Virus record (IMG/VR): IMGVR_UViG_3300008448_000653
Span: 1-23,804 of that record
Reading direction: 5' to 3' (one strand)
DNA length: 23,804 nucleotides
Origin: a virus
A program made the translations under genes and the position numbers. Numbering within the stretch: the stretch's first letter is position 1; the number at the start of each line of letters is the position of its first letter. Below, piece by piece: positions 1 to 21,728 of this stretch. The notes beneath the pieces were generated by a model. That model was not told the origin of the DNA and did no database searches. It saw only the letters and a program-made list of their open reading frames with translations.

Positions 1-208
1 ACAACTCACAGCAGCACAGCGGGTAAAACTAAACATCTCCTCGACATATCCTGGTCCGCTTAACAACATCACAGAGATCAAAATCTACACCAATACATTT
101 AGTTCTCATCTCGCTATCGACAATCTCAACTACACGGTGGTTCCTGTACCATCGGCACTTGCCCTGCTTGCGATTGCTGGTATTTCAACTAATCGACGGA
201 GGAAGTAA
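1..208 (+). CDS. PEP-CTERM-like secreted protein, C-terminal part (5' end outside window)
   Basis: This is the last 68 codons of an open frame entering from the left edge, read from base 2 to the TAA at 206-208. The visible protein ends with a PEP-CTERM-like sorting tail: VPVPSALALLAIAG, a few polar residues, then RRRK. In this family the tail is a Pro-containing motif, one hydrophobic helix and a basic end, which a bacterial exosortase processes during export to the cell surface. The upstream part is rich in Thr, Asn and Ser, as expected for an exported beta-rich domain, but I cannot name a domain. The stop is followed two bases later by the next start codon, and the bases encoding the Arg run also supply the GGAGG-type ribosome site for that next gene. 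It sits upstream of phage replication genes, so a phage origin is likely. Whether the host processes the tail is inference. Confidence 0.7.
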   Translation, partial: QLTAAQRVKLNISSTYPGPLNNITEIKIYTNTFSSHLAIDNLNYTVVPVPSALALLAIAGISTNRRRK

Positions 209-209
209 A

Positions 210-308
210 ATGCTTGATCTCATAACCATTGGTTTCTTTATTATCGCCTTCGTATTTGTCTTAGTAGATCTTCGTCTGCGCCGACTTGAGAATAAACAGG
301 GAAAGTAG
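210..308 (+). CDS. 32-residue single-span membrane peptide
   Basis: This ATG frame of 32 codons encodes a peptide with one hydrophobic segment (residues 3-19, ITIGFFIIAFVFVLV) followed by a basic, charged tail (DLRLRRLENKQGK). It should insert in the inner membrane with the tail in the cytoplasm by the positive-inside rule. A strong ribosome site (CGGAGGAAG, 197-205) lies at good spacing before the ATG, and the gene fits exactly between the PEP-CTERM-like gene and the next start at 311, which supports it being real. The function is unknown. Small phage membrane peptides include holin-like, antiholin and superinfection-exclusion proteins, but nothing here distinguishes these. Confidence 0.6.
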   Translation: MLDLITIGFFIIAFVFVLVDLRLRRLENKQGK

Positions 309-310
309 AA

Positions 311-502
311 ATGAATAAAGATAATGACGATAAAGACATTGCCTATGAACTTCGCGTTCTGAGCAAGAGGCAAGATCTGCCACCTGATGTAATTCGTACA
401 ATTTCAGAGGCATATGCTGAGATTGTGGAACTTCGCAGTCAAGTAAGCAAATATGCTCTGGAAGCGATCACTCGTTTCGATGAGGAGAATGGATTAATAT
501 AA
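311..502 (+). CDS. small hypothetical protein
   Basis: A 63-residue acidic protein (many Asp and Glu, starting MNKDNDDKDIAYEL) with no Cys and a likely helical C-terminal half. It begins two bases after the preceding stop, with a GGGAAAG ribosome site at 300-305, and its TAA overlaps the ATG of the next gene by one base (TAATG at 500-504), so it is embedded in the operon. I do not recognise a family. The sequence is soluble and helix-rich, with no signal peptide or membrane span. Confidence 0.6.
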   Translation: MNKDNDDKDIAYELRVLSKRQDLPPDVIRTISEAYAEIVELRSQVSKYALEAITRFDEENGLI

Positions 503-780
503 TGTATGGAATAGTTACTGATAAAGACAATTTTGTGATGGATAACATGAAAGACCCTTCGGGAGAACCCCGCAAGGGTACTCTTCTTTTTAAAAAGAAG
601 TCAGATGCAGTAGCAGAATGTGACTACCTAAATAGTATACGACATAAAATGAAAATTAGTGAATGTTATAGCGTTTCAAAATTCACAGAAGAAAACTTGA
701 CAGACTATGGTATAATTTTAGATGGTAAATGGCAAAGGAATCTTAAATGTACAATAACTTTCGACCAACTGGTAGCGTAA
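502..780 (+). CDS. hypothetical protein
   Basis: A 92-residue soluble protein starting MYGIVTDKDNFVM. Its first half looks like a short beta-alpha unit (GTLLFKKKSDAVAECDYLN), a pattern common in small phage proteins of unknown role. The start overlaps the preceding stop by one base. Its last 34 bases overlap the next gene in another frame, and they contain both an extended -10 promoter (706-716) and the next ribosome site (AAAGGA, 734-739). So the 3' end of this gene also serves as the control region of the following gene. I do not recognise a family. Confidence 0.55.
   Translation: MYGIVTDKDNFVMDNMKDPSGEPRKGTLLFKKKSDAVAECDYLNSIRHKMKISECYSVSKFTEENLTDYGIILDGKWQRNLKCTITFDQLVA
706..716 (+). promoter_or_regulatory. 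extended -10 promoter inside the preceding gene
   Basis: TATGGTATAAT contains a perfect -10 hexamer (TATAAT, 711-716) preceded by the TGn extension. The same 11 bases occur in the promoter at 9043-9053. A TTGACA lies at 697-702, but only 8 bases separate it from the -10, so it cannot be a normal -35 partner. Transcription would start near 722-723, giving a leader of about 24 bases that carries the AAAGGA ribosome site of the gene at 747. Confidence 0.5.
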
Positions 781-1370
781 TTCAACTTATGGATGGTAGA
801 GTCTTCAAAAGAAACCAAAAGAATCTTTGGGAAGATATTAACACAGGTGTTACAATCACGGAACAGCAACTTGGTACGATGATATCATCTGCAAATTTTA
901 GTTCTGATGCAAGTGGTGGAGGTAGAACAAATAGAAAGAATACATTTGTTCCAGACTATACTGCAACTCAAAGAGAATGGGGAGATATAAATGGTCTTAA
1001 TTATGGTGTAGAAGCATTCAATTCAAATCAAATAATTTCAGGAATAAATGCTCCAATTGAAATTAGATTATCATTTGAAAATACTACATCTGGAGGAAAT
1101 GCAGTTTATGCAGCAACAAGTTCATTGAAAGTTTATAAAAATGATATCTTAATAGATACAATTTCTACAAATACTAGACCGACTAAATCTGGAGATGGTG
1201 CTGGATTATATACTTTGAGTGAAACTTTTTCAAATAATGATACACTAAAATTTGGAGCAATTAGTACTACTGATATAAATTATGATATTGTTAGTGTACA
1301 AAATAAAACTGAAGGTGGTTCATCTATATCTTTAACAGGAATTACAGTTATTATTTCAGAACTTGGTTAA
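747..1370 (+). CDS. beta-rich virion or fibre-like protein
   Basis: A 207-residue protein. ATG at 747 was chosen because AAAGGA lies seven bases upstream; an internal ATG at 789 has no comparable site. The first 50 residues are a compact N-terminal segment (GRVFKRNQKNLWEDINTG) followed by a Ser/Gly-rich linker. Residues 90-207 alternate hydrophobic and Thr/Ser/Asn residues, typical of a beta-sandwich or fibre tip (IEIRLSFENTT, SLKVYKNDILIDTIST, ITVIISELG). There are no Cys, no signal peptide and no membrane span. This type of sequence suits a virion surface protein. It is out of place between small genes and a DNA polymerase fragment, and it has its own candidate promoter. A cargo gene inserted into the replication region is one explanation. 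No specific family was recognised. Confidence 0.6.
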   Translation: MYNNFRPTGSVIQLMDGRVFKRNQKNLWEDINTGVTITEQQLGTMISSANFSSDASGGGRTNRKNTFVPDYTATQREWGDINGLNYGVEAFNSNQIISGINAPIEIRLSFENTTSGGNAVYAATSSLKVYKNDILIDTISTNTRPTKSGDGAGLYTLSETFSNNDTLKFGAISTTDINYDIVSVQNKTEGGSSISLTGITVIISELG

Positions 1371-1375
1371 TATAA

Positions 1376-2494
1376 ATGAATTTGAAATCTTTATCTGATG
1401 AACAACTTCTATATTTAAAGCATCAAACAGAAAATGATATTTCGAAGTATCATAACTTTCAACTTGTAAGAAAGATTCAACTGAATTCTGCTTACGGTGC
1501 AATCGGAAATGAATATTTTAGATATTATTCCACTGAACTTGCAGAAGCGATTACTTTATCAGGACAATTATCTATTCAATGGATTGGTCAAGAAATCAAT
1601 TCTTATTTGAATAAGATTATTGGAACTGAAGATTATGATTATGTAATTGCCTCTGATACAGATTCGATTTATCTACGTCTAGAAAAACTTGTAGATAAAA
1701 TCTATAAAGATAAGAATGAAAATACTAAAAAGATTGTAGATGCTTTGGACAATACTTCAAAGGATATCATTCTTCCATTTATTGATAAGAAGTTTAAACA
1801 ACTGGCAGAAACCATGAACGCATATGAAAATAAGATGCACATGGAGAGAGAAGTAATTGCTAACAAAGGTATTTGGACTGCGAAGAAAAGATATATGTTG
1901 AATGTTTGGGATTCTGAAGGAGTCAGATATTCAGAATCAAAACTCAAAATCATGGGTATTGAAACAACACGTAGTTCAACACCTGAATGTATTCGTAAAC
2001 TTCTAAAGGAAGCAATTCATATCACAATGAATGGAACCGAATCAGAGATGATCTCGTTTGTTGAAAATTGTAGAAATGAATTTAATCAACTAACTCCAGA
2101 AGATATTGCATTTCCAAGAAGTGTGAATGGAATGGGAGACTATTTCGATAAAACACAGATCTATAGAAAATCAACTCCCATGCATGTGAAAGGATCATTG
2201 ATTTATAATCATTATTTGGAAAAATTTAAACTGACTAAAAAGTATAAGAAAATTATTGAAGGAGATAAGATAAAATATCTCCATCTTAAGAAACCAAATC
2301 CATTCCTTGATATTCGTGGAGACATGCAAGTAATAGCATTCCCAAATGTTCTTCCAAAGGAATTTGGTCTTGATAATTTTATTGATTATAAAACACAATT
2401 TGAAAAATCTTTTATTGATCCGTTGACTACCATTCTAGATACTATAGGATGGAGTGCGGAGAAAAAGCATACACTAGAATCATTATTTGGTTGA
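1376..2494 (+). CDS. 43: T4 gp43-like family B DNA polymerase, C-terminal part (fingers/palm motif C/thumb)
   Basis: A 372-residue protein matching the last ~370 residues of T4 gp43 (898 residues). Motif B is at residues 33-41 (KIQLNSAYG, with invariant Lys, Asn, Tyr, Gly), motif C at 94-97 (DTDS, metal-binding aspartates), and the KKRY thumb motif at 170-173. The protein ends in LESLFG, equivalent to the sliding-clamp-binding tail of T4 gp43. From the motif B Asn to the C-terminus is 335 residues against 334 in T4, so this part is complete. What is missing is the N-terminal domain, the 3'-5' exonuclease and motif A. The frame opens with its own ATG five bases after the preceding stop, with no clear ribosome site. 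The missing half is not in the window; it must be encoded elsewhere and assemble in trans, or the polymerase is broken. Split gp43 proteins are known in some T4 relatives. Confidence 0.9.
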
Positions 2495-2504
2495 AAGGAA
2501 TATT

Positions 2505-3551
2505 ATGAGTGACTTCTTATCGTCAATGGTTAAATCATCTGGAAACAAATACGCTTCACTTGTATCTGATGGATTGGATGGATCAGATGTAGGTGGATTT
2601 GTAGATACTGGATGCTACATGTTGAATGGACTTCTTTCTGCCGATATTTACGGTGGACTTCCAAACAATAAGATTCTTGCACTAGCAGGAGAATCTTCAA
2701 CAGGTAAAACTTATTTCACTTTAGGAATTGTTTCTAAGTTTCTGAGAGATAATCCAGAGGCAGTAGTTTTATATTTTGATTCTGAACAAGCAGTAACATC
2801 TGAGATGTTTAAGAATCGTGGAATTGATCCTAAGCGAGTCGGAGTATTTCCAGTATCGACAATTGAAGAGTTCAGGCATCAGGCAATTACGATTGTTGAT
2901 AAGTATCTTGCATTGCCGAAGGAAGATCAGAAACCAACGATGGTGGTTCTAGATTCTCTTGGCATGTTGTCAACTTCCAAGGAAATGAATGATACTGCTG
3001 AAGGTAAGGAAACGCGAGACATGACTCGCGCACAAATTATCAAGTCAACATTCAGAGTTCTTACAGTTAAACTTGGAATTGCAAAGATTCCAATGATTAT
3101 GACAAACCACACATATCAAGTTGTTGGTGCATATGTTCCAATGTCAGAGATGGGTGGTGGTACTGGTCTAAAGTATGCTGCATCAACAATCGTGTATCTA
3201 TCCAAGAAGAAAGATAAGAATGCTGATGGACAAGTAGTTGGAAATATTATTCACTGTAAACTCTACAAGGGTAGATTTACAAAAGAAAATAAGCAGATTG
3301 ATGTTCGTCTAAATTATGACAGCGGATTAGATCCGTATTATGGTCTTGTAGATATTGCTGTTAGTGCTGGAATCTTCAAGAAAAATTCTACACGAATTGA
3401 ACTTCCTGATGGATCGAAAGCATTTGAAAAGACCATCTATGATAATCCTGAAAAGTATTTCACGAAGGATGTTCTTGACCAAATCAATGAGGCGGTGTAT
3501 AATGAGTTCAGTTATGGTGGAGAAACCAAAACTGAAGTCGAGGAATCATGA
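2505..3551 (+). CDS. uvsX: UvsX-like recombinase (RecA family)
   Basis: A 348-residue RecA-family strand-exchange protein. It forms filaments on single-stranded DNA for recombination-dependent replication and repair. Walker A is GESSTGKT (residues 62-69); Walker B is [10 protein letters not shown], with Asp150; FDSEQ at 91-95 fits the RecA/UvsX glutamate region; and [12 protein letters not shown] resembles the T4 UvsX DNA-binding loop region. Length is slightly below T4 UvsX (391). The ATG at 2505 is preferred over a TTG at 2487 because AAAGGA lies just upstream and MSDFLSS resembles the T4 N-terminus. The C-terminus is acidic, as in UvsX. It follows the polymerase by ten bases and overlaps the helicase start by four (ATGA). 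Confidence 0.93.
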
Positions 3552-4900
3552 CTGATATTGAAAAACTGATACTGCATAATCTCTTAAGAAACGAAACATA
3601 TTCACGAAAAGTTACTCCCTTCCTCAAGAGGGAGTATTTTCATGATCGTGCAATACGATTTGTTTTTGAAACTATTCATGAGTTTATTCAGAAATACAAT
3701 AACCTTCCAACCAAGGAAGCGTTGTATATCATTCTTGATAAGAACAAATCAATCACACAAGAGGAACTGAAGCGTGTCTCACAAATCGTTGAGGAAATAT
3801 CGCATAATCAAGAGTCGTGTGACAATGAATGGTTGTTCAATGAAACGGAAACATTCTGCAAAGAGAAAGCGGTCTACAATGCGATCATGGAATCCATTCA
3901 AATTATTGATGGAAAATCTCAACAAGCACAGGGATCTATTCCTGATATTCTATCGAAAGCATTAGCAGTATCTTTTGATGTTCATATTGGTCACGATTAC
4001 ATTGAAGACTATGAAAAGCGATATGATTTCTACCATACAGTAGAAAAGAAGGTTCCATTCGATTTGGATTACTTTAATCAAATCACAAACGGTGGAACTC
4101 CGTCAAAGACTCTCAATATCGTAATGGCAGGAACTGGCGTAGGAAAGTCTCTTTTCTTATGTCACCATGCTGCAAATTGTCTGAAGCAGAACGCCAATGT
4201 TCTGTATATTACGTGTGAAATGGCAGAAGAAAGAATTGCAGAAAGAATTGATGCAAATCTTCTTGATATTACTCTTGACAATCTGAAAGAACTTCCAAAG
4301 ACTGTATATGAAAAGAGAATGGAAAATCTTTCATCTGGAGTCACAGGTAAACTTATCATCAAAGAATATCCAACTGCAACTGCTAATGTAAATCATTTTA
4401 GATTCTTGTTGGATGAACTTTGGTTGAAGAGAAAGTTTAAACCAGACGTAATCTTTATTGACTATTTGAACATCTGTGCATCTGCTCGTCTGAAAAATGG
4501 AAACAATATCAATTCTTATACTTACATTAAATCCATTGCAGAAGAGTTGAGAGGTCTTGCTGTAGAGTATGGTGTACCTTTGTTTAGTGCTACCCAGACT
4601 ACTCGCTCTGGTTATTCCAATTCAGATGTAGGTCTTGAAGATACTTCAGAATCGTTCGGTCTTCCCGCAACTGCTGACTTTATGTTTGCTCTTATCTCTA
4701 CAGAAGAACTTGCAGAGCAAAATCAAATCATGGTCAAGCAATTGAAAAATCGTTATAATGATACTGCTGTGAATCGTAAATTCTTGTTAAGTATCAATCG
4801 TGCAAAGATGAAACTTACAGATATTCAATCACAATCAAATACAGTAATTCCAACTACTCCAACTCAAAAGAAAACGAAAATGGATGATTGGAAATTCTAA
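3548..4900 (+). CDS. 41: gp41-like replicative helicase (DnaB family)
   Basis: A 450-residue hexameric 5'-3' helicase that unwinds DNA at the fork and works with the gp61 primase encoded next. An N-terminal helical domain (1-150) contains the DnaB-like [19 protein letters not shown] segment. The RecA-like motor follows: Walker A GTGVGKS (195-201), [17 protein letters not shown] (the DnaB H1a/H2 region) near 218-234, Walker B VIFIDYL with Asp305, then [13 protein letters not shown], a DnaB sensor/H3-like motif. The length is close to T4 gp41 (475). The start overlaps the uvsX stop by four bases and the stop shares one base with the primase ATG, giving a tightly coupled recombination-helicase-primase block. 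Confidence 0.93.
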
Positions 4901-5877
4901 TGTCACTTTATCTTGATAAGAAATACATCAATCTAGTTTCCAATTCTCTTGAGAAGTTCAAATGGAAGAAGAATACACTTGCAAACTGTAGATGTCCAAT
5001 CTGTGGCGATTCCACAGTAAGTAAAACAAAGGCAAGAGGTTATTTCTTTAGTTCAGATGATTCTTTCTTTTTTAAGTGCCATAATTGTGGTATATCATTT
5101 AATGTTTATAAATTTTTAGAAATTGTATCTCCAAGTCTTTTTCAGCAATATTGTCTTGAAAAGTTCAAAGACGATACTCGTAAAGAACTTGAGTTTACTT
5201 CACCAGTAGTTTCTATTACTTCTTCGATTCCAGAATATACTCTGATTAAAGATTTACCAGAGAATCACGAAGCAAGACAATTTATTGAAAATCGAAAGAT
5301 TCCATATCTAAATTCTAAAATTGGATACGTTGAATCGTTTGCAAGATTTGCAAAAGAATTTAATCCAGATTATGAACTTATGGATGATTCTCGAATTATA
5401 ATTCCAATTTTTGATGAGCACAATCAGTGTATTGGTGTTCAGGGTAGAACCATCAAGAATGCTAAACCAAAATATATCACACTCAAAAAGACTGAAAATA
5501 TTAAACTAATTTATGGTCAAGATCGTGTGGATAAAAGCAAGCGTATTCTCGTCGTAGAGGGTCCAATTGACAGTCTATTCGTTGCCAATGGAATCGCTTG
5601 CTTGGGTTCAGGAAATTTTCTAGAAATTAGAGAAAAGTTTCAAAAACAAGATCTTGTGTTCATTCTGGATAATGAACCTAGAAATAAACAAATTGTAGAC
5701 ATTATGTCAGAACTTATACAAAGAAACGAAAAAGTTTGTATATTTCCATCTAATATTAAACAAAAAGATATAAATGATATGGTCTTGTCAGGAATAAATG
5801 TTCCTGATATCATAGACAATCACACATATCGTGGTGCATCAGCACTTTTAAATTTTAATTCATGGAGAAAATGTTAA
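4900..5877 (+). CDS. 61: gp61-like DNA primase
   Basis: A 325-residue primase that makes RNA primers for the lagging strand together with gp41. The N-terminal zinc-binding domain has CPICGDS (Cys32, Cys35) and CHNCG (Cys60, Cys63). A TOPRIM fold follows: RILVVEGPIDSLF with catalytic Glu220, and FILDNEP with acidic residues 257-259 binding metal. Length is close to T4 gp61 (342). The ATG at 4900 overlaps the helicase stop (TAATG) and gives an N-terminus like that of gp61; an in-frame ATG at 4888 lies inside the helicase gene and is less likely. The gene ends in TAATG, sharing a base with the next start. Confidence 0.92.
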   Translation: MSLYLDKKYINLVSNSLEKFKWKKNTLANCRCPICGDSTVSKTKARGYFFSSDDSFFFKCHNCGISFNVYKFLEIVSPSLFQQYCLEKFKDDTRKELEFTSPVVSITSSIPEYTLIKDLPENHEARQFIENRKIPYLNSKIGYVESFARFAKEFNPDYELMDDSRIIIPIFDEHNQCIGVQGRTIKNAKPKYITLKKTENIKLIYGQDRVDKSKRILVVEGPIDSLFVANGIACLGSGNFLEIREKFQKQDLVFILDNEPRNKQIVDIMSELIQRNEKVCIFPSNIKQKDINDMVLSGINVPDIIDNHTYRGASALLNFNSWRKC

Positions 5878-6398
5878 TGAAGATTTCAAAGGAAAATTAT
5901 CTACTTCTGAACGCAGTTGCCGAATTTCATATGAAGTTTAGCGAATATGTGCGAGAACAAGATTCTGATCTTTTCTTTAGGGCAGTAGATTATGCAAAGA
6001 CATATACCAATGTTGAGGGTATGCAGTTTGATTATTGGCATGATGATAATAAGAAGTTCCTCAGCGAACTTTTAGCAGTTTTGGAAACCAAGTCTATTTC
6101 GTTTGATAAGTTTGTTGCCAAGGTAGGCAATATCGAAGATGCAAAGGAAGCATGGATGAAAAAGAATAAGACTACCAGCGATGATATGCTAGGAATGAAG
6201 AATTATCTTGAGAATTTTAAACGACATGCAAATGAACTTGATTATGACAGTTTTGATGTTGACGATTGGAGAAATTTTGTAAATGTTTGCAAGTACATCA
6301 AAGATGATTCGAAATTTATTGAGATGATTGAAAATCTTATCTTGAAGTATTTCAATGAAAATAGTGATTTGTATAAGGAATTTAAAAATGAAAACTGA
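5877..6398 (+). CDS. hypothetical protein in the replication operon
   Basis: A 173-residue soluble, acidic, mostly helical protein, rich in Asp, Phe, Tyr and Lys, with no Cys. I do not recognise a family. ATG at 5877 was chosen because it overlaps the primase stop (TAATG) and GGAG lies at 5864-5867; earlier in-frame ATGs at 5862 and 5871 would sit inside or on top of that ribosome site. The 3' end overlaps thyX by 11 bases. Its position between primase and nucleotide synthesis genes suggests a replication accessory role, but nothing in the sequence proves it. Confidence 0.7.
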   Translation: MKISKENYLLLNAVAEFHMKFSEYVREQDSDLFFRAVDYAKTYTNVEGMQFDYWHDDNKKFLSELLAVLETKSISFDKFVAKVGNIEDAKEAWMKKNKTTSDDMLGMKNYLENFKRHANELDYDSFDVDDWRNFVNVCKYIKDDSKFIEMIENLILKYFNENSDLYKEFKNEN

Positions 6399-7077
6399 AA
6401 GAATTACAGTTCTTGATTCTGGTTATGTTGAATATGTCGATCATATGGGTACTGATCTGACTATTGTTAATGCTGCCAGAGTCTCGTTTAATAAAGAAAG
6501 CGAATGGGATACTGGACATGTTCTTTCCGTTAAAGATTCCAAATTAGTCAAGTATCTCGCAGATCATAATCACTGGACTCCATTCGCGCATACATCTATT
6601 ACTTTGCGAATCAAAGCACCGATTTCAATTCGTACACAACTTTTTAAGCACAAGGTTGGATTTACGGAGAATGAAATCTCTCGCAGATATGTTTCATACG
6701 AACCAGATCTTTATTATCCATTCTTTCGTGGTAAACCAACGAATGGAGCAAAGCAAGGATCAGAAGATTTTATTCAAGATCCAAAGGTAAAACTTACAAT
6801 CGACAAGATCTATCGTGATTCTGCTGAATCCGCTATTGAAGCGTATAATGACTTGCTAGATGCAGGAGTAGCACCAGAGCAAGCAAGATTTATTTTACCG
6901 CAGGGAGTTTATACAGAGTGGTGGTGGACAGGATCTCTTCCAGCATACGCACGTGTTTATAAGCAAAGAATTGATCCACATGCACAATGGGAAGTTCAAC
7001 AATATGCAAAATCAATAGGTGAAATTATTGAATCGCTATTTCCTGAATCCTGGAGTGTCCTTACATCGAATACATAA
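6388..7077 (+). CDS. thyX: ThyX flavin-dependent thymidylate synthase
   Basis: A 229-residue FAD-dependent enzyme that methylates dUMP to dTMP using methylene-tetrahydrofolate and NADPH. The ThyX signature region is at residues 82-101: RTQLFKHKVGFTENEISRRY. The usual RHR is replaced here by KHK, a change I recall in marine phage ThyX proteins, while the NExSxRY part is kept. APEQARFILPQ (162-172) and DPHAQWEVQQYA near 196-207 fit the dUMP/FAD-binding C-terminal region. ATG at 6388 follows AAGGA and gives a standard N-terminus; the in-frame ATG at 6355 would add 11 residues inside the preceding gene. It supplies dTMP next to the RNR gene, so the two form a DNA-precursor pair. Confidence 0.93.
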   Translation: MKTERITVLDSGYVEYVDHMGTDLTIVNAARVSFNKESEWDTGHVLSVKDSKLVKYLADHNHWTPFAHTSITLRIKAPISIRTQLFKHKVGFTENEISRRYVSYEPDLYYPFFRGKPTNGAKQGSEDFIQDPKVKLTIDKIYRDSAESAIEAYNDLLDAGVAPEQARFILPQGVYTEWWWTGSLPAYARVYKQRIDPHAQWEVQQYAKSIGEIIESLFPESWSVLTSNT

Positions 7078-7103
7078 AATGCCACTTTCAATAAGGAGTA
7101 AGA

Positions 7104-9029
7104 ATGAAAGAATTACCTTCAGATTATCAAAAATTTATACACACATCAAGATATGCTCGTTGGATTGAGAAGGAAAAGCGTCGAGAAACATGGGAAGAGA
7201 CTGTTAAGCGTTATTTTGATTTCTTTGAAGTTCAACTCAAAGAACATAATAATTACGTTGTTTCTCCAGAACTTCGTTCTGAACTTGAGAATGCTGTTCT
7301 CAATCTTGAGATCATGCCAAGCATGAGAGCGTTAATGACTGCTGGTGAGGCACTTCGTCGTGACAATACAGCAGGATATAATTGTTCGTATGTTGCAGTA
7401 AATCGTGTGAGAGCATTTGATGAAATTCTATACATTCTGATGTGTGGAACTGGTGTTGGATTCTCTGTGGAGAGACAATATGTTGAAAAACTTCCTACAA
7501 TCGCTGAACACTTTAATCCTAGCGATACCACGATCATCGTGGAAGATAGCAAGGCTGGTTGGTCTAAAGCATATAAAGAACTTATCTCCCTACTCATTGG
7601 AGGTCAAATTCCAAAGTGGGATGTATCAAAAGTTCGTCCTGCTGGGGCGAGACTCAAAACTTTCGGTGGGCGAGCAAGTGGACCAAGACCCCTCGAAGAT
7701 CTTTTTAAATTCACCTGTGATACTTTTAAGAGAGCAGCAGGAAGAAAACTCACCTCAATCGAATGTCACGACATCGTATGTAAGATTGCAGAAATTGTCG
7801 TGGTCGGAGGAGTCCGTAGATCTGCTCTTATTAGCCTATCAAATCTCACAGACGAAAGAATGAGAGATGCAAAGTCTGGTGCATGGTGGAATGAGAATCC
7901 ACAACGCGCACTTGCAAATAACTCAGTTGCATACAAGGAAAAACCAGAGATTGGTATTTTCATGGATGAGTGGGTTTCACTCTATAAGTCTAAGAGCGGA
8001 GAACGAGGAATCTTTAACCGTTCGGCAGCACAGAAGACTGTAGCAAAGTTAGGAGAACGTCGTGATTCTTCTTACGAGTTTGGAACAAATCCATGCTCAG
8101 AAATTATTTTGCGTGATCGTCAATTCTGTAATCTGACTGAAGTTATTATTCGAACAGAAGATACTCAAGATACCATTGCACGTAAGGTTAGACTCGCATC
8201 TATTCTTGGTACATGGCAAGCATCACTCACACATTTCCCATACCTTTCATCAGAATGGAAAAAGAATTGTCAGGAGGAAGCATTGCTCGGTGTATCAATG
8301 ACAGGAATTCTAGACAATCCTCTTATGGGTAGTAAGGATCATCGTTTGTTGTCTGGTGTTCTAGAAGATCTTAAGAAAGTAGCAATTGATGCAAACAAGG
8401 AATGGTCTGATAAACTTGGTATAAATCCTGCTGCTGCTATTACATGTGTAAAGCCTTCGGGAACAGTTAGTCAATTGACTGATGCTGCGTCTGGTATTCA
8501 TGCTCGTCACAGTGAATATTATATTCGTACAGTTCGTGCAGATCGCAAGGATCCATTGTGTCAGATGATGATTGATCTTGGATTCCCCGCAGAACCATGC
8601 GTAATGAAACCAGATCATACGATGGTATTCTCATTCCCAATGAAGGCAGTTGGTTCAATTACTCGTAATGATTTGACTGCAATCGAACATCTTGAATTGT
8701 GGTTGACATATCAACGCCATTGGTGTGAGCATAAACCATCAATCACGATAACTGTTCGTGAACATGAATGGATGGAAGTTGGTGCATGGGTATATAAGCA
8801 CTTTGATGAGATTAGTGGTATTTCCTTCTTACCACACTCCGATCACTCATATCGTCAAGCACCATATCAGGAATGCACCAAGATTGCATATACTGCTTTG
8901 CTTGTAGAAATGCCTAAAAATGTAGATTGGTCACTTCTCAAGAATTATGAAAAGACTGACACGACCGCAAGTTCGCAGACATTTGCTTGCTCTGGTGATA
9001 AGTGTGAATTGGTGGATCTTACAACTTGA
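7104..9029 (+). CDS. nrdJ: class II (adenosylcobalamin-dependent) ribonucleoside-triphosphate reductase, monomeric type
   Basis: A 641-residue B12-dependent reductase converting ribonucleotides to deoxyribonucleotides. Compared with the Lactobacillus leichmannii enzyme (739 residues): redox Cys94 (NCSYV), the catalytic NPCSE loop at 329-333 with thiyl-radical Cys331, partner redox Cys342 (FCNL), and the C-terminal relay pair Cys629/Cys634 (CSGDKC), with the same spacing as the known relay cysteines. No intein or frameshift is seen. A strong ribosome site (AAGGAG, 7092-7097) precedes the ATG. No activator or NrdB gene is adjacent, consistent with class II, which needs no oxygen and no second subunit but needs host- or environment-derived B12. 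The TGA stop lies inside the -35 element of the next promoter. Confidence 0.93.
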   Translation: MKELPSDYQKFIHTSRYARWIEKEKRRETWEETVKRYFDFFEVQLKEHNNYVVSPELRSELENAVLNLEIMPSMRALMTAGEALRRDNTAGYNCSYVAVNRVRAFDEILYILMCGTGVGFSVERQYVEKLPTIAEHFNPSDTTIIVEDSKAGWSKAYKELISLLIGGQIPKWDVSKVRPAGARLKTFGGRASGPRPLEDLFKFTCDTFKRAAGRKLTSIECHDIVCKIAEIVVVGGVRRSALISLSNLTDERMRDAKSGAWWNENPQRALANNSVAYKEKPEIGIFMDEWVSLYKSKSGERGIFNRSAAQKTVAKLGERRDSSYEFGTNPCSEIILRDRQFCNLTEVIIRTEDTQDTIARKVRLASILGTWQASLTHFPYLSSEWKKNCQEEALLGVSMTGILDNPLMGSKDHRLLSGVLEDLKKVAIDANKEWSDKLGINPAAAITCVKPSGTVSQLTDAASGIHARHSEYYIRTVRADRKDPLCQMMIDLGFPAEPCVMKPDHTMVFSFPMKAVGSITRNDLTAIEHLELWLTYQRHWCEHKPSITITVREHEWMEVGAWVYKHFDEISGISFLPHSDHSYRQAPYQECTKIAYTALLVEMPKNVDWSLLKNYEKTDTTASSQTFACSGDKCELVDLTT

Positions 9030-9053
9030 CAATAAATATAATTATGGTATAAT
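9026..9053 (+). promoter_or_regulatory. consensus sigma70-type promoter overlapping the nrdJ stop codon
   Basis: TTGACA (9026-9031), 16 bases, then TATAAT (9048-9053) with a TGn extension (TATGGTATAAT, 9043-9053). Both hexamers are perfect, so host sigma70 polymerase should use it strongly without phage factors. The -35 includes the nrdJ TGA (9027-9029). Transcription should begin near 9060, directly before a GC hairpin, and read the PEP-CTERM-like gene. Confidence 0.8.
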
Positions 9054-9062
9054 ACTAAAAAC

Positions 9063-9079
9063 TCCCCCTCGTTGGGGGA
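9063..9079 (+). promoter_or_regulatory. 5' leader hairpin of the PEP-CTERM-like transcript
   Basis: TCCCCC, loop TCGTT, GGGGGA forms a six-pair GC stem starting about three bases after the predicted transcription start. No T-tract follows, so it is not a terminator. The ribosome site GGAG (9084-9087) lies just after it and stays single-stranded. A 5' stabilising hairpin is the simplest reading. Confidence 0.5.
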
Positions 9080-9093
9080 TCATGGAGAAAAAT

Positions 9094-9525
9094 ATGATTA
9101 AGAACGTAATGGCAAGTATCGTAGCAACCGTAATGTTTGGTGCTGAGGCAATGGCAGATTTCATCGTTGTTAACAATCCAGTAGTTGATACTGTTGGATT
9201 CTATTCTGATGCATTTGAATCAAAGGGTGCATATACTTATGCACAGAGTGGTGCTCAGGGATTTGAACTTGAGGATTCATACACAACTTCTTCATTGAAG
9301 TGGTGGGGTTCTATGAATGGTTTCAATGGTCAGGGTCTTTCAAATGTTGATTGTTTCCAGATCGTTGTTTGGAATACAGACTTTGAAACACAAGTTACAA
9401 ATCAAATTATTGATTTGGAAAATATTACAGCAACTGCAACTGGAGAAACTATTTCTTTGGTCAAGCAATCTATGAGTTTTATGTTCCAATTTCATTCCAG
9501 ATTACTTCAGGTTCATACTTTATGA
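9094..9525 (+). CDS. secreted PEP-CTERM-like protein, N-terminal part before an apparent frameshift
   Basis: ATG at 9094 follows GGAG (9084-9087) at ideal spacing; an in-frame ATG at 8947 lies inside nrdJ and upstream of the promoter. Residues 1-21 form a signal peptide (Lys3, hydrophobic core, AMA cleavage before DFIVV), so the protein is exported. The mature part has Gly, Trp and Thr and looks beta-rich. After ...TGETIS (about 9456) this frame turns into low-quality sequence ending VHTL, while the -1 frame continues sensibly (FGQAIYEFYVPISFQITSG) into the downstream ORF with the PEP-CTERM-like tail. One extra T in the CTTTGG run near 9455-9460 would restore one protein of about 220 residues. 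Either the gene is freshly broken, there is a sequencing error, or the frame is switched. No classical slippery heptamer is present in the right phase. Confidence 0.7.
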   Translation: MIKNVMASIVATVMFGAEAMADFIVVNNPVVDTVGFYSDAFESKGAYTYAQSGAQGFELEDSYTTSSLKWWGSMNGFNGQGLSNVDCFQIVVWNTDFETQVTNQIIDLENITATATGETISLVKQSMSFMFQFHSRLLQVHTL

Positions 9526-9761
9526 ACATTGGAGCACAACTCAATGATGCTGCTGGTGATCAATTTGTTTGGTCGCAGGGTCAGAATGTTCAAGACTTCT
9601 GGTTTACTGATGAAAATGGACAGAATAAGTGGGGTGATTGGCGACCACTTCCTACATTCATCGGTAATACCGCAGGGGGTGCGTTTGTGCTTTCCGCTCC
9701 TGCTCCTGGGGCAATTGCTCTTCTTGGTATGGCGGGTCTGATGGGTCGCCGTCGTCGCTAA
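9522..9761 (+). CDS. PEP-CTERM-like protein, C-terminal part after the apparent frameshift
   Basis: This 79-codon frame can start at the ATG at 9522, which overlaps the upstream TGA (ATGA), but it is more likely the 3' part of the gene starting at 9094. The in-frame sequence upstream of the ATG, from about 9455, is also coherent protein. It ends with a textbook sorting tail: Pro-Ala-Pro, the hydrophobic stretch GAIALLGMAGLMG, then RRRR. In this form the tail resembles those of planctomycete (Phycisphaerae) surface proteins. If only this part were translated it would lack a signal peptide, which argues against an independent gene. No ribosome site precedes 9522. Confidence 0.65.
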   Translation: MNIGAQLNDAAGDQFVWSQGQNVQDFWFTDENGQNKWGDWRPLPTFIGNTAGGAFVLSAPAPGAIALLGMAGLMGRRRR

Positions 9762-9769
9762 TATAAATA
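9762..9769 (+). promoter_or_regulatory. T4-type late promoter octamer (candidate small-RNA promoter)
   Basis: TATAAATA immediately after the stop codon of the PEP-CTERM-like gene. T4 late genes use this octamer as their only core element. If active, transcription would start near 9775 and run through two hairpins to the terminator at 9807-9836, before the next promoter. There is no reading frame in between. Confidence 0.4.
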
Positions 9770-9774
9770 TATAA

Positions 9775-9836
9775 CATACCCCACTTGAGATAGCATCTCA
9801 GGTCCGACAACCTCCAGAAATGGGGGTTGTTTCTTT
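9775..9836 (+). ncRNA. candidate ~60-base small RNA with two hairpins
   Basis: The spacer between 9762 and 9836 contains a late promoter octamer, a nine-pair hairpin (9783-9803, stem ACTTGAGAT/ATCTCAGGT with one G-U pair, loop AGC), a three-base gap, then the terminator hairpin. A transcript from 9775 would be a short two-hairpin RNA. The alternative is that the first hairpin is only a spacer or a processing site of the upstream mRNA. Confidence 0.3.
9807..9836 (+). terminator. intrinsic terminator with AGAAAT loop
   Basis: The stem ACAACCTCC (9807-9815) pairs with GGGGGTTGT (9822-9830) with one T-G pair, and the loop is AGAAAT. A TTCTTT tract follows and runs directly into the next TATAAATA promoter. 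It ends the PEP-CTERM-like transcript and belongs to a family of similar hairpins at 11483, 12591 and 15857. Confidence 0.75.
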
Positions 9837-9843
9837 ATAAATA
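9836..9843 (+). promoter_or_regulatory. T4-type late promoter for the beta-helix gene
   Basis: TATAAATA, exact match to the T4 late consensus, located 16 bases before the ATG at 9860. The short leader contains AAAGGAG (9848-9854). The first T of the octamer is also the last base of the upstream terminator tract. Confidence 0.75.
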
Positions 9844-9859
9844 TTATAAAGGAGACATT

Positions 9860-11476
9860 ATGCACGAACTAAGACCAGTAGCGAGATGGGCAAGAGTTCC
9901 TTGGGAAACCGTCGATGGATTAGAACAAATAGGTGTTGTTTCTTTTCATAAGGATGGAATCAAGGAAGTTAGATATAAGATTGATATAGGCAATAAAGGT
10001 CCAGCAGATCTAAGTTTGGTTCTTTCTAATTTTGGAAAGATTACAACAGAAGGTGATCAGAATGGAGATGGAAAGGTAGATGCCACCGATTTAAGTTTGG
10101 TTCTTTCCCAATTTGGTGAACAATATGAAGTTGTAGTTACAGAATCAAGAGCAAATCAAAAAACAAAAATTGAAGAATATTCTTTTGATTTTGATTTCTC
10201 TCCCCTTTCAGAAGGAAAGATTGTAGAAGTTCAGGCAACTGTTGTGGCAAATGATGGAACAATCGTTGAACTGAAAGATCCCCGTACAATAGACAACTAC
10301 CGAGATGGGTTTCACTCTATTTGCTTACAGAAGAAATGGACTCCAGAAAAAGTATATACTGTAGATCAAAATGGTTCTGATTCAAACGATGGTATTTCTG
10401 CTCCATTCAAGACAATCGCAAAAGCATTTTCAGTTGCAAACTATGGAGATGTGATTGAGCTAAGTTCTGGAGAGCACGAATTGACTTTGCCATCTGTAAA
10501 ACCAAAACCAAAGCAAGGACTTGGAAATTGGGTCATTGTTCGTGGTAAAGGAATGAATGACACGATTCTATTCTCTCAAGGTGCTTTTAGAACATTTAAT
10601 AAAATCAAGTTTGAAAACTTGATGGTTGATATTGGTAGATCAAACTATGCTACCAATGCTTCAAACCTATGGTGGCACAACTGTAAGTTTTACTCACCAA
10701 GTTCAGAAGCGTGGTGGGCAGATGGTATTGCGAAGCATGGTCCACCAGATCCATCAATTCCTATCAGCGCGAAGGGAACAGATGCAGCATGGCACAGGGA
10801 TGGTGCTTGCTATACAGATTGCCATCAAGAACTTTATTGTCAGGGATTTGGTGGAAGTCCAATGGCAAGAAATTGTATAGTTAAGCGTATCTGGGGAGAT
10901 GCTTTTTCTATGGCACATGGAATCTATAACTGCTCAGTCGATGAATTTGCTGGGTATTTAACAGATAAGCATAGCGATCTATATCAGGCATGGGGAGATA
11001 AGACAAATGTTATTTTCTACGGAGTAACAGCAACAAAACTTGAGTCAGTTCAGGGTATTTTCTGCCGAATGGTAGATGTTCCAGTTTCAAGTCTTCCACC
11101 ATTTGATCCAAATATCCATGAGCAAACCGCTCTTTGGAATTGTGCGTTTGTTAATTGTGTAATACAACATATACCAAGACCATATAAGGGATATGTTAAT
11201 GGTGGTGGTCCTCCATATTCACAACTTAATAATAAAATTAAACATGTTCTTCTAACAAATGTTCAATTAGCATATCAAAAGATTTTCTTTGGTGGTGACG
11301 AAGAAGGTTGGGAAAAGAAGAACCATGAAGATGTCATCCTAACTGGTTGCGATCTTCATTGGTCAAATTTTAGTGATTTTGAAGATCCAAGAAGAGGATG
11401 GACAAAGATAGATGGTGGATATGAAAGAACTGGTGTGAAAGTATTAGACTGTTACAACTCAGTTCCAAAAGGATAA
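9860..11476 (+). CDS. beta-helix virion protein with inserted dockerin-like module (tail spike/fibre candidate)
   Basis: A 538-residue protein; ATG at 9860 follows AAAGGAG. Residues ~20-45 and ~88-140 look like two halves of an Ig-like beta domain (IGVVSFHKDGIKEVRYKI; EEYSFDFDFSPLSEG then VEVQATVVANDG). Between them, residues 47-87 form a type I dockerin-like module: two near-identical helices (ADLSLVLSNFG, TDLSLVLSQFG) and one complete calcium loop DQNGDGKVDATD (66-77). The first calcium loop is degenerate. From ~165, VYTVDQNGSDSNDGISAPFK followed by IAKAF is the usual opening of a right-handed beta-helix (DUF1565/pectate-lyase-like), and the remainder has repeated Asn/Cys-rich turns. There is no signal peptide and a late promoter drives it, so a tail spike or fibre is the best guess, possibly polysaccharide-binding or -degrading. 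No catalytic residues can be assigned. Confidence 0.75.
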   Translation: MHELRPVARWARVPWETVDGLEQIGVVSFHKDGIKEVRYKIDIGNKGPADLSLVLSNFGKITTEGDQNGDGKVDATDLSLVLSQFGEQYEVVVTESRANQKTKIEEYSFDFDFSPLSEGKIVEVQATVVANDGTIVELKDPRTIDNYRDGFHSICLQKKWTPEKVYTVDQNGSDSNDGISAPFKTIAKAFSVANYGDVIELSSGEHELTLPSVKPKPKQGLGNWVIVRGKGMNDTILFSQGAFRTFNKIKFENLMVDIGRSNYATNASNLWWHNCKFYSPSSEAWWADGIAKHGPPDPSIPISAKGTDAAWHRDGACYTDCHQELYCQGFGGSPMARNCIVKRIWGDAFSMAHGIYNCSVDEFAGYLTDKHSDLYQAWGDKTNVIFYGVTATKLESVQGIFCRMVDVPVSSLPPFDPNIHEQTALWNCAFVNCVIQHIPRPYKGYVNGGGPPYSQLNNKIKHVLLTNVQLAYQKIFFGGDEEGWEKKNHEDVILTGCDLHWSNFSDFEDPRRGWTKIDGGYERTGVKVLDCYNSVPKG

Positions 11477-11482
11477 ATAAAA

Positions 11483-11516
11483 ACAACCCCCAGAAATGGG
11501 GGTTGTTTCTTTTCAT
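11483..11516. terminator. bidirectional terminator between convergent genes
   Basis: Perfect nine-pair stem ACAACCCCC/GGGGGTTGT (11483-11506) with loop AGAAAT. On the plus strand TTCTTTTC follows; on the minus strand TTTTTATT follows. It ends both the beta-helix gene and the convergent gene at 11532-12560. Confidence 0.85.
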
Positions 11517-11531
11517 GATATATTTAATATT

Positions 11532-12560
11532 TTATCTTCTAATCTTAGTTCTTGGATTTATTCTACCCATTGTTTTATCTACAAAATCAACAGTTTTATT
11601 TCTTTTTTGCATTACAGCATCTACTTCTTGTTGTGGAATTGGTTGATCTCCATACTGTGCGGTGAGTCTTTCTAGTTCTTTATTTGCTTCTTTCTTTGCT
11701 GCTTCTTTTTCTTTGAATAATGCGTAATCGTCACCACCACCAATTTCAAATCCTCTTTCTTCCATTCCTTTCATAACCTCTACACGATTTTTATATCCAG
11801 TCAGCGGACCTTCTCTCTCAATATCACGCTCTGCTGCTTGTCTTAATAATTGATCGTCTACAGATCTAGGTTCCTTGAATATATTAACACCTCGTTGTGC
11901 TAATCTACCATAGTGGGTTGCTCTAGACTCTTGGCGTGGTGGATTTCTGTCGATTTCTCTTGCTGCTGCAATCGCTGCTTTATTTGCTGCTGCTTGTGCT
12001 TGCATTTCTGGAGTTATTGGATTGAGTTGGCGAAGTCTTTGTTCTGATTCTTTTCTTGCTTTTTCAGCAGCAGCACCAGTTTCGTGTCTGTAACCAAACA
12101 TTCCACTTTCAGAACCACCTACTTTACCTACACTGTATCCAAGTTCATTTGCTTGTCCAACAAAGTCCTGATCTGCACTCAAATTCTTTATTGCTTGCGC
12201 CCTGATTGCAACATCATCTCCATCTCCACCAGCAGTTCTAATGTTTGACATTTCTTGACGAAGACGAGTTTGCATTGCCTTTAGTTGTTGTTTTCTTGCC
12301 TTTTTTTCTTCATTTTTTCCAATAGAGACTTGTTGAGAATTTTCTCTCGACAATGCTTGATATCCTTTATATCCAGCATATCCTAGACCAGCACCAACAA
12401 GACCACCACCGATTACTTTTCCTGGTGTTGATTTTGCTACTCTGATTGCTTTACCTGTTCCTCTTCCCAGAAAACGTCCTAACCATCCAGCAGCAGTTCC
12501 GAGAGCACTTTCAGAAACTAAAAGTTTTTTATAATCATTAACAATGTTTTCGTTAATCAT
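11532..12560 (-). CDS. virion-like protein with glycine-zipper segment
   Basis: A 342-residue protein. ATG at 12560 was chosen because GGAG lies just upstream and the late promoter is 16 bases away; the longer frame from 12590 would start inside the promoter/terminator region. The N-terminus (MINENIVNDYKKLLVSE) is a short amphipathic helix ending in a Glu motif, like capsid-targeting peptides of T4 internal head proteins. Residues ~48-70 form a glycine-rich hydrophobic segment (GGGLVGAGLGYAGYKGY). The rest is highly charged and helical, rich in Ala, Arg, Glu and Gln, and probably coiled coil. No family was recognised. The late promoter and composition suggest an internal head or structural protein. 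Confidence 0.7.
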   Translation of the reverse strand: MINENIVNDYKKLLVSESALGTAAGWLGRFLGRGTGKAIRVAKSTPGKVIGGGLVGAGLGYAGYKGYQALSRENSQQVSIGKNEEKKARKQQLKAMQTRLRQEMSNIRTAGGDGDDVAIRAQAIKNLSADQDFVGQANELGYSVGKVGGSESGMFGYRHETGAAAEKARKESEQRLRQLNPITPEMQAQAAANKAAIAAAREIDRNPPRQESRATHYGRLAQRGVNIFKEPRSVDDQLLRQAAERDIEREGPLTGYKNRVEVMKGMEERGFEIGGGDDYALFKEKEAAKKEANKELERLTAQYGDQPIPQQEVDAVMQKRNKTVDFVDKTMGRINPRTKIRR

Positions 12561-13566: not shown

Positions 13567-14121
13567 ATGATAATTGCAGGGATAGACTATTCTTTAAACG
13601 GACCAGCGATATGCGTATTCAATACCAGTTATCGGTTTGAATTTTCATCCTGTAATTTTTATTTTTTAACAGATACTAAAAAATATGCAACAAAATTCAT
13701 GAATAATATTCATGGAGAACTTTTCAGTCCATATGATGAAGAATGTGAAAGATATGATTCAATTTCTGATTGGGTAATAAAAAGTTGCTTTGGATGTGAA
13801 CAAGTGGCACTGGAAGGATACGCATATAATGCTACTGGAAGGGTATTTCACATTGCTGAAAATACTGGAATATTAAAATATAAATTATACCAAGCATCCA
13901 TTCCTGTTGAAATAATTGAACCATCAAGAGTCAAAAAACTTGCAACTGGAAAGGGCAATTCAGATAAAAAAATGATGTATGAGTCTTTTGTAAAGGATGT
14001 TGGTATACCTTTACAAGAAATAATCACTCCTAACAAAAAAGATATCGGAAATCCAGTTTCCGATATCATTGATGCTTTTTATATTTGTAAAAGTTTATAT
14101 TTACAGATTAAGACTTCTTAG
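13567..14121 (+). CDS. RuvC-like Holliday junction resolvase/endonuclease
   Basis: A 184-residue RNase H-fold nuclease of the RuvC type. Acidic residues sit where expected: Asp7 (AGIDYSL), Glu83 (ALEGYAY), Asp166 and Asp169 (SDIIDAFYI); KGNSDKKMM (129-137) matches the basic RuvC loop before the last strand. Likely role: cutting branched DNA during recombination or before packaging. The position of Asp7 fixes the start at 13567, although no ribosome site is visible; the ATG may be read from a very short leader. Its 3' end overlaps the convergent gene by 14 bases, and a perfect hairpin inside the coding region (14041-14067) probably terminates the opposite strand. Confidence 0.8.
   Translation: MIIAGIDYSLNGPAICVFNTSYRFEFSSCNFYFLTDTKKYATKFMNNIHGELFSPYDEECERYDSISDWVIKSCFGCEQVALEGYAYNATGRVFHIAENTGILKYKLYQASIPVEIIEPSRVKKLATGKGNSDKKMMYESFVKDVGIPLQEIITPNKKDIGNPVSDIIDAFYICKSLYLQIKTS
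14035..14067 (-). terminator. minus-strand terminator inside the RuvC-like gene
   Basis: GATATCGGAAA (14041-14051), loop of five, TTTCCGATATC (14057-14067): a perfect 11-pair stem. On the minus strand it is followed at once by six T (plus 14035-14040 is AAAAAA), giving an intrinsic terminator 40 bases past the end of the minus-strand gene at 14108. The same bases code for the catalytic end of the RuvC-like protein. Confidence 0.6.
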
Positions 14122-21064: not shown

Positions 21065-21710
21065 TGAAATTTACCTCTCTTTTATATGTATCAATACAAT
21101 TTTTCAAAGGTTCAATCCAGGACTTAACATCAGACTTGAAAACCTGAACAAATCCTTGTTCATTGACCATCAATATAACAATTTTATTGATCTTTTCGCC
21201 AGTTCTTTCTTGCCATAGAAGAGAATATGCTGCTCCTTGGCAGAAGTAGTTATCAATATCAACTTTCTTTTTCGGATATGTACTTGCTTTAAAGTCGATG
21301 ATCGCTAGTTCTTTATCATATTCTGCAATACAGTCAACTCTTCCAGCAAGACCAACTTTCTTTCCCCACAGAGTCTTTTCAATTGCTCGAATGTTATTGA
21401 TCTTATCAAGTTCATTCTTTATCAACTGAAAAAGTTCATCTGACTTATTATCGACAGATTCGTTGAGGAGGTAAGACTCTATCTTTTCGTGTAAGTTATT
21501 ACCACGATCACAAACTCTTTGAGATTCTTTTTTATTATTCTCTCTCCAGGTTGCGAACTTTTTATTCTTTTCCCATCCAACGACAGAAGTAACTGATGGA
21601 AATAATCCTTCAGGAGTGGAATATGCTCTATAATTATCACGATCTATTCGTGTAATTTCTTGGTCAGGAAGTTCGATAAAATTATGTTTAAAATTTCCAA
21701 TCACAAACAT
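21045..21710 (-). CDS. PD-(D/E)XK exonuclease (RecB/Cas4/MGME1-like)
   Basis: A 221-residue nuclease. Key motifs: RGNNLHEKIESYL (69-81, with Glu75 in the helix), RAIEKTLW (108-115), AGRVDCIAEY (122-131, metal-binding Asp126), IIDFKAS (137-143, Asp139 and Lys141 of the D...DxK core), and NYFCQGAAYSLLWQERTG (154-171, Gln158 of the QxxxY motif). This is the arrangement of RecB-family exonucleases such as MGME1, which degrade single-stranded ends. Related proteins occur in many T4-like marine phages. Likely role: DNA repair, recombination or host DNA degradation. No ribosome site is visible before the ATG; the 18-base gap upstream has TTATAATA. Confidence 0.8.
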   Translation of the reverse strand: MFVIGNFKHNFIELPDQEITRIDRDNYRAYSTPEGLFPSVTSVVGWEKNKKFATWRENNKKESQRVCDRGNNLHEKIESYLLNESVDNKSDELFQLIKNELDKINNIRAIEKTLWGKKVGLAGRVDCIAEYDKELAIIDFKASTYPKKKVDIDNYFCQGAAYSLLWQERTGEKINKIVILMVNEQGFVQVFKSDVKSWIEPLKNCIDTYKREVNFNGTIDE

Positions 21711-21728
21711 ATTATAACATCAGAAATA

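Follow-up and report, generated by a model that had tools for sequence, protein, structure and literature searches.

A DNA fragment of 23,804 bp from a phage, comprising the whole of the IMG/VR virus record IMGVR_UViG_3300008448_000653 and referred to below as the window, was found to carry a gene, here designated PEP1, whose product resembles bacterial substrates of the PEP-CTERM/exosortase sorting system. PEP1 (9094..9761, + strand) is read from the family alignment as a signal-peptide-like start, a beta-sandwich and a PEP-CTERM-type tail (9696-9758). In the window it is one gene from 9094 that is split by a one-base indel near 9457, and the tail, in the reading frame 9522-9761, ends ...APAPGAIALLGMAGLMGRRRR; the frame is intact at the indel position in the related loci L002, L003 and L006. 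A second tail is present at the left end of the window, where PEP2 (2..208, + strand) is the 3' part of a PEP-CTERM-tailed protein. As the window is a 23,804-bp IMG/VR record, this gene is taken to be truncated by the contig end, with its 5' part off the contig. The PEP2 tail, ...VVPVPSALALLAIAGISTNRRRK, scored 18.2 bits against TIGR02595, above the cut-off of 16, and 15.7 bits against PF07589, below the cut-off of 20.7, while the corresponding scores for PEP1 were 11.9 and 13.5 bits. The first-pass annotation had proposed two PEP-CTERM-like tails from the sequence and suggested the search with profile models reported here. Both tails are real, PEP2 exceeding the TIGR02595 cut-off and PEP1, under both models, having a tail that is family-wide.

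PEP1 was found on 48 other IMG/VR contigs, 38 from the search for relatives and 10 extra from the tail motif. The exact motif occurred in 22 viral stretches, of which ten were on contigs outside the 38, and all ten of these had a PEP1 match. Within the main set of 38, the tail is kept in every copy with a 3' end (34/34) and the remaining four copies (L014, L017, L023 and L039) run off the contig end. An alignment of 29 intact copies had a mean column identity of 74%, with the tail present and a signal-peptide-like start in all 29 rows by eye. The ratio of nonsynonymous to synonymous polymorphism (pN/pS), calculated for 36 moderately diverged pairs, was 0.70 for the signal peptide, 0.17 for the mature part and 0.21 for the tail. 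Selection preserves the PEP1 tail, and because the whole family shows it, the tail is convincing despite its low profile scores; PF07589 matched 14 of 45 phage records at E 0.01. The possibility that the tails arose by chance was dropped on the family of relatives, the 34/34 retention and the pN/pS values. Relatives of PEP2 were found at 16 viral loci, with the polymerase half described below downstream in 10 of them, and nine aligned relatives share a signal-peptide-like start (by eye) and the same tail. Another phage protein with a PEP-CTERM-like end is encoded at L225 3340-3846 in record G439 (PF07589 14.7 bits, under cut-off).

Homologues of PEP1 are present on bacterial chromosomes. Thirty genomes containing the tail motif were searched with a profile, which gave near full-length homologues in G026, a planctomycete metagenome-assembled genome from Lac Pavin (E 1.9e-24), and in G001, Phycisphaerales ZLKRG20 (E 1.3e-21), while the other matches listed in those genomes were to the tail or the last third of PEP1. 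Both homologues lie between genes that we take, by eye, to be folP-like and fumarase-like, and are therefore considered chromosomal. The profile matched 3/397 in an even sample of the class of G026 at 1e-8, 1/294 in its phylum at 1e-6, namely G026 itself, and 0/274 in the class of G021, a search run without a positive control whose null result shows little. Within the family of G026, 20/181 matched at E<=1e-7 (best 6.6e-63); 13 of these 20 cover most of the domain and two of the 13 are without the tail. The best bacterial homologue, in G1062, shares 48.8% identity over 213 residues, and its neighbours are presumably clpB-like and nadB-like genes (by eye). A scan of 40 genome stretches with the PEP1 alignment, using two short patterns only, confirmed no relative. 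In G253 C35 and G295 C5, a distant PEP1-like bacterial gene lies about 3.6 kb from an exosortase gene. The class is here called Phycisphaerae from its titled members, G023 and G027 ('Phycisphaerae') and G015 and G028 ('Phycisphaerales').

A tree comprising 29 phage and 10 bacterial rows has a branch, with support 100/99, that sets the phage rows apart; the join to L282 has 84/77 and carries a long-branch warning, and the copies of T7-like phages sit among the T4-like ones. This topology is consistent with one capture, probably from a Phycisphaerae-type host, presumably followed by exchange between phages. The exosortase family PF09721 was detected in 28 of 32 bacterial genomes (not in G008, G013, G021 and G027), a selection based on the presence of the tail motif or of a homologue and thus no survey of exosortase frequency, and in none of six phage records searched. 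PEP-CTERM-type tails occur several times per bacterial genome. When species genomes were searched for the tail motif, at least 120 stretches were obtained; among the matches listed, 90 had planctomycete-type titles, 18 were untitled and 12 had other titles, a tally that follows the record titles as given and includes several stretches from one genome. A tblastn search of 50,697 phage records returned no PEP1, PEP2 or cohesin-like/dockerin protein (see below), and for the window gene at 9860 a single weak match to a Synechococcus phage, over residues 150-237 and outside the dockerin part. The planctomycete link suggested in the first-pass annotation is supported: both PEP1 and the cohesin-like/dockerin protein have full-length homologues on chromosome-like contigs of a class titled Phycisphaerae, and the motif titles, among the matches listed, are mostly of planctomycete type. 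The host is probably a member of the Phycisphaerae (Planctomycetota), judging by these homologues and titles, and titles such as LacPavin and Baikal indicate that the phage of the window is probably of lake water.

A perfect sigma-70-type promoter, TTGACA-16-TATAAT with TG before the second hexamer, is situated at 9026..9053 (+ strand) and ends 40 bp short of where PEP1 begins. The whole window contains no other 12-of-12 site. In the T4-like set, window not counted, 9 of 15 loci have a perfect site 67-104 bp ahead of PEP1, with promoter spacers that vary from group to group and again in G460 and G463. Eight records contained nine perfect sites, four of them at PEP1 (G460, G463, G420 and the window), compared with a mean of 0 to 0.1 in Markov controls of 20 sequences per record (first 100 kb only for G439). 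G460 (156 kb), G463 and the window have no perfect site other than that at PEP1, and G455, G457, G425 and G439 have perfect sites elsewhere or none. Genes of envelope type, as judged by eye, are among those behind perfect sites, namely a Cys-lipoprotein (L008, L010 and L037) and an outer-membrane-barrel-like protein (G425). In the former case (L008 8927, L010 3222 and L037 5296) there is another perfect sigma-70 promoter immediately downstream of PEP1, and behind it a Gly/Tyr-rich lipoprotein is encoded; in the latter (G425 21134-22021) the protein has a signal-peptide-like start and the promoter is upstream. The position of the promoter suggests that PEP1 may be expressed early by the host polymerase. 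A terminator-like stem-loop follows PEP1 at 9806..9831 (+ strand, terminator scan).

Three groups of phage contigs carry PEP1, with L036 and L038 assigned to none of them. In most T4-like contigs PEP1 comes after the ribonucleotide reductase gene, directly or within about 1 kb, and before a RuvC-like gene; in G439, G443 (L029) and G457, all with gp23, it is located elsewhere. The second group consists of 16 contigs (L009, L011, L012, L014-L022 and L025-L028) whose tail and terminase genes we take to be of T7 type, and in L021 PEP1 has a lipoprotein-like gene on one side and the terminase on the other. In the third group (L032, L033 and L035) PEP1 is just before ThyX, and the neighbours in L032 are a phage RNA polymerase, a primase-helicase and DNA polymerase I. 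At the junctions L040 1777-1918 and L252 11138-11253 PEP1 is missing, and it behaves there as an optional cassette.

The first-pass annotation had also assigned a type I dockerin-like module to the gene at 9860, and this was borne out in part. The gene (9860..11476, + strand) encodes a beta-helix, tail/baseplate-like protein with a dockerin-like insert (PADLSLVLSNFG ... GDQNGDGKVDATDLSLVLSQFG; 10001..10117, + strand), which is a calcium-loop-like sequence with two helices. All its Pfam scores are under cut-off (DUF1565 19.4, Dockerin_1 18.4, Pel9A-like 15.6 bits), and Dockerin_1 (E 0.0026, cut-off 22.9) aligns with residues 76-95 and with the first repeat of the model only. No PHROG match was obtained for the gene; its 94% identical relative in L040 scored 18.0 bits for Dockerin_1 and matched tail/baseplate PHROGs at E 2.5e-5 and weaker. 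No signal peptide was seen by eye and the protein resembles a beta-helix protein of tail type, the one point on which the first-pass reading is amended. The idea of a secreted host enzyme was dropped on the missing signal peptide and the PHROG matches of the L040 relative. The loop is present in the beta-helix proteins of the window and L040, and by eye in L177; the direct counterpart in L002 has no dockerin by Pfam, the next L002 gene scoring 15.1 bits. A search with the window gene found one viral locus. In the window, L002, L003 and L177 the gene for the beta-helix protein is either adjacent to PEP1 or separated from it by one gene. A stem-loop at 11481..11508 (+ strand, terminator scan) is a near copy of that at 9806, and the gene, flanked by the two, has the look of a cassette that could be exchanged; terminator-like sites in positions 1-12000 of the window numbered 18 against 6.1 expected.

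Dockerins above the cut-off, with two repeats, were found in other phage proteins (L006 32.7, L225 35.2 and L212 30.4 bits). The one in L212 (13132-14196; record G457, a 168-kb phage with gp23) belongs to a GDSGSPV protein that is serine-protease-like by eye. A secreted cohesin-like/dockerin protein, rarer than PEP1 with four viral loci from the search, adjoins PEP1 or is next but one to it in L006, L024, L029, L034 and L176, and L030 has a 31% identical relative near PEP1. Its N-terminal domain had no Pfam match to cohesin at E 0.05, and among the best 60 rows of PDB profiles the dockerin region alone was matched; a bacterial neighbour gene scored 19.6 for cohesin, under 24.1. As the AlphaFold model had a pLDDT of 47.2, no fold is drawn from it. 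Full-length homologues of this protein were found in G009, G003 and G026 (E 5.5e-48, 6.5e-45 and 1.0e-34; 41, 39 and 35% identity), where they adjoin more dockerin genes, one with HYR, and 35 of 298 genomes matched at 1e-8, mostly within the dockerin part. A phage subtilase (142.5 bits) is encoded at L226 561-1979 in G439, with a signal-peptide-like start and a C-terminal pair of dockerin-like repeats that are visible by eye and not called by Pfam; the usual catalytic Asp position appears by eye to be Glu.

The T4-like nature of the phage, likewise claimed from the sequence at first pass, is confirmed by PHROG matches. The left half of the window holds a T4-like replication block together with ThyX and a B12-type ribonucleotide reductase, as seen from PHROG and NCBI profiles. 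These genes, all on the + strand, comprise the C-terminal half of a split, T4 gp43-like family B DNA polymerase (1376..2494; phrog_262, positions 498-852 of 856), a UvsX-like recombinase (2487..3551; phrog_97, E 4.5e-87), a DnaB-like helicase of gp41 type (3548..4900; phrog_19, E 8.2e-124), a primase of gp61 type (4888..5877; phrog_47, E 6.8e-70), the thymidylate synthase ThyX (6355..7077; TIGR02170 135.3 bits, cut-off 87.9 exceeded) and the B12-dependent ribonucleotide reductase (7104..9029; phrog_367, E 1.1e-188; TIGR02505 313.2 bits, below 340.05; synteny). The next conserved gene downstream encodes a RuvC-like nuclease (13567..14121, + strand; PF02075 19.5 bits, below 22.2; synteny). Only the C-terminal half of the polymerase occurs in the window and in G420 (377 aa), and the full-size enzyme is encoded in G455 and G460 (841-852 aa) and G457 (847 aa). 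The UvsX protein is 63% identical to that of Pelagibacter phage HTVC008M and 60% to that of Methylophilales phage Melnitz; 2,475 records matched in this search, six at 60-80% identity and the others lower. The capsid gene gp23 is not in the window itself, a fragment, and was found in 5 of 45 phage records searched, including contigs of 168, 156 and 102 kb. At 18249-20648 the window encodes a 799-aa protein with a C-terminal HNH_3 endonuclease domain.

The AlphaFold model of PEP1 (pLDDT 76.7) includes a low-confidence helix at residues 3-16. Comparison with PDB gave weak matches to carbohydrate-binding beta-sandwiches, with a query TM of at most 0.37 and a chlorovirus capsid protein as the best match, and the viral fold library gave 21 matches at E<=0.001 with a TM of at most 0.48. 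As only weak beta-sandwich matches were obtained, no binding of sugars is claimed.

PEP1 shares with PEP-CTERM/exosortase sorting (TIGR02595, PF07589, PF09721) the signal-peptide-like start, a Pro motif, a hydrophobic stretch and an Arg-rich end, and exosortase is present in the bacterial group that holds PEP1 homologues. It differs from the standard in being phage-encoded, in having the motif P[ATS]P[GS] instead of PEP and in falling under the curated cut-offs. Phages are known to make envelope proteins for superinfection exclusion, such as Imm and Sp of T4 and Llp of T5. PEP1 would resemble these in its way of working, as a phage gene altering the envelope of the infected cell, and unlike them it would be routed via an exosortase-type tail. 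With the T4-like phages HTVC008M and Melnitz the window has in common the UvsX protein noted above and T4-type replication genes, whereas PEP1, PEP2 and the cohesin-like/dockerin protein gave no tblastn match in the collection that includes these two phages. A cohesin/dockerin peptidase complex, the 'planctosome', has been proposed for the freshwater Phycisphaerae family Nemodlikiaceae (PMC6461901). It resembles the phage genes in having dockerin-bearing peptidases as well as secreted dockerin proteins whose partner domain is jelly-roll-like, and homologues of the phage dockerin protein over its full length occur in the same class. Differences are that the present genes are in phages, that neither Pfam nor PDB profiles identify the N-terminal domain as cohesin, and that the phage peptidase is a subtilase and not M12B or M14. 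In the open-licence literature, judged largely by titles, no phage-coded exosortase substrate was found, titles give no report of dockerin in phages of planctomycetes, and little concerns planctomycete phages, the phrase matches listed being on CL500-3 only. Neither of these two host attachment systems, exosortase and planctosome, was found described in phages in that literature.

Taken together, these data suggest, with moderate confidence, a T4-like phage of Phycisphaerae in which a host-derived PEP1 is sorted by exosortase to the surface of the infected cell, likeliest for exclusion of other phages or a change of receptor. PEP1 would be derived from the host and encode a small beta-sandwich protein that is secreted and bears a PEP-CTERM-type tail; some phages have PEP2 in addition. 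The consensus host-type promoter of many T4-like members would allow strong, early transcription of PEP1 by host RNA polymerase, the product would be exported via its signal peptide, and the host exosortase would recognise the tail and place PEP1 on the infected-cell surface. The altered surface could bring about superinfection exclusion, or a receptor could be masked or replaced, and dockerin-bearing phage proteins nearby may exploit host extracellular attachment systems in the same manner. A surface change with exclusion is preferred because unrelated phages share PEP1 and because consensus promoters repeatedly precede envelope-type proteins. A broader proposal, held more tentatively and judged somewhat less probable than its negation, is that at least two unrelated phage kinds of Phycisphaerae share a surface-takeover set, in which exosortase-sorted PEP-CTERM proteins, expressed early from consensus host promoters, are combined in some of the phages with dockerin/cohesin-like adaptors and dockerin-tagged proteases that would plug into the planctosome.

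Several observations weigh against this interpretation. Superinfection exclusion as a role is read from just the kind of protein and the promoter. The window's own copy of PEP1 is frameshifted near 9457, as L166's copy seemingly is; its tail lies below both cut-offs (16 and 20.7), and PF07589 exceeded its cut-off in 0/45 phage records, with no match at E 0.01 in 31 of the 45. At the reductase/beta-helix junction of L040 and L252, PEP1 is absent, from which it appears dispensable. The body of PEP2 had no bacterial match at 1e-7 in 298 genomes, the tail region alone matching in three. The dockerin of the window is incomplete, being a single loop with two helices and lacking the two repeats above cut-off found elsewhere. 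Promoter-like sites overall are not enriched (41 found, 43.8 expected), and the nine promoter-positive loci are partly kin (L002-L005 with L013; L008, L010 and L037). L031 and L034 have 11 of 12 positions with a 15-base spacer before PEP1, neither form of the site precedes it in L007, L024, L029 and L030, and none of the 12 T7-like copies examined has a perfect promoter. Perfect sites also precede, by eye, gp46-like (G457), HNH-like (G425) and methyltransferase-like (G420) genes. The G+C content of the phages is 35-51%, compared with 58-73% for the bacterial loci, and phage minor tail proteins are the best PEP1 match in the viral fold library (E 3.3e-5, TM 0.44).

The last two points lead to other explanations. 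PEP1 could be a tail-associated virion protein whose C-terminal tail acts otherwise, in line with the minor tail proteins among the 21 viral fold matches, yet beta-sandwiches are common and the TM values low, the aligned rows uniformly have a signal-peptide-like start, and in T4-like carriers the gene follows replication genes; we regard this as very improbable. The G+C gap would also fit a host in another exosortase-bearing phylum, the planctomycete likeness then being old or transferred. Here the 12 other titles among the matches listed (Limnohabitans 5, Chitinophaga 4, Ferrovaceae 1, Verrucomicrobiales 1 and Bacteroidia 1), and the Verrucomicrobiales and Bacteroidia genomes with six and seven tail matches at E<=0.001, are set against homologues that extend beyond the tail only in the class of G026 or in G001 (Phycisphaerales), among sampled classes that exclude Verrucomicrobiota, against the 0/274 for the class of G021, obtained without a positive control, and against two gene families, PEP1 and the cohesin-like/dockerin protein, that point to one class. 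A host of that kind is improbable.

Rather more room is left for an effect on the infected cell's adhesion or its extracellular polymer, leading to aggregation, proteolysis or release instead of phage exclusion. The weak matches of the PEP1 model to carbohydrate-binding beta-sandwiches, the presence in relatives of cohesin-like/dockerin proteins and of a subtilase that is secreted and carries dockerin-like repeats (by eye), and the peptidase complex proposed in PMC6461901 are compatible with it, but the fold matches are poor, and we give it a modest chance. PEP1 and PEP2 might alternatively be decoys that flood the host exosortase, such that host receptors or matrix proteins go unsorted. The conserved tail, which resembles tails present several times per bacterial genome, and the consensus promoter of many PEP1 copies would fit, whereas the mature beta-sandwich is constrained at least as strongly as the tail; since a decoy would not need a constrained mature part, a mere decoy is disfavoured and is given a small chance. 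Contamination or binning artefacts, which the homologous genes on bacterial chromosomes might bring to mind, have a next to negligible probability. In many contigs the gene occupies the same position, with the reductase on one side and the RuvC-like gene on the other, the phage rows are separate from the host rows in the tree, and PEP1 is on 156- and 168-kb contigs with gp23; this explanation was dropped on synteny.

Surface sorting of PEP1 by the host exosortase remains the reading preferred here. That PEP1 is common to T4-like and T7-like phages suggests a benefit at the infected cell and not for one type of virion. The Phycisphaerae-type class is reported to constitute a major part of lake communities (PMC6461901), and PEP1 is usable as a marker for phages of this lake bacterial class. 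With a conserved phage gene directed at a single host surface system, what PEP-CTERM proteins do in planctomycetes becomes open to test, and, if the proposal is true, phage-coded parts would rebuild the infected cell's outer surface via two host attachment systems.

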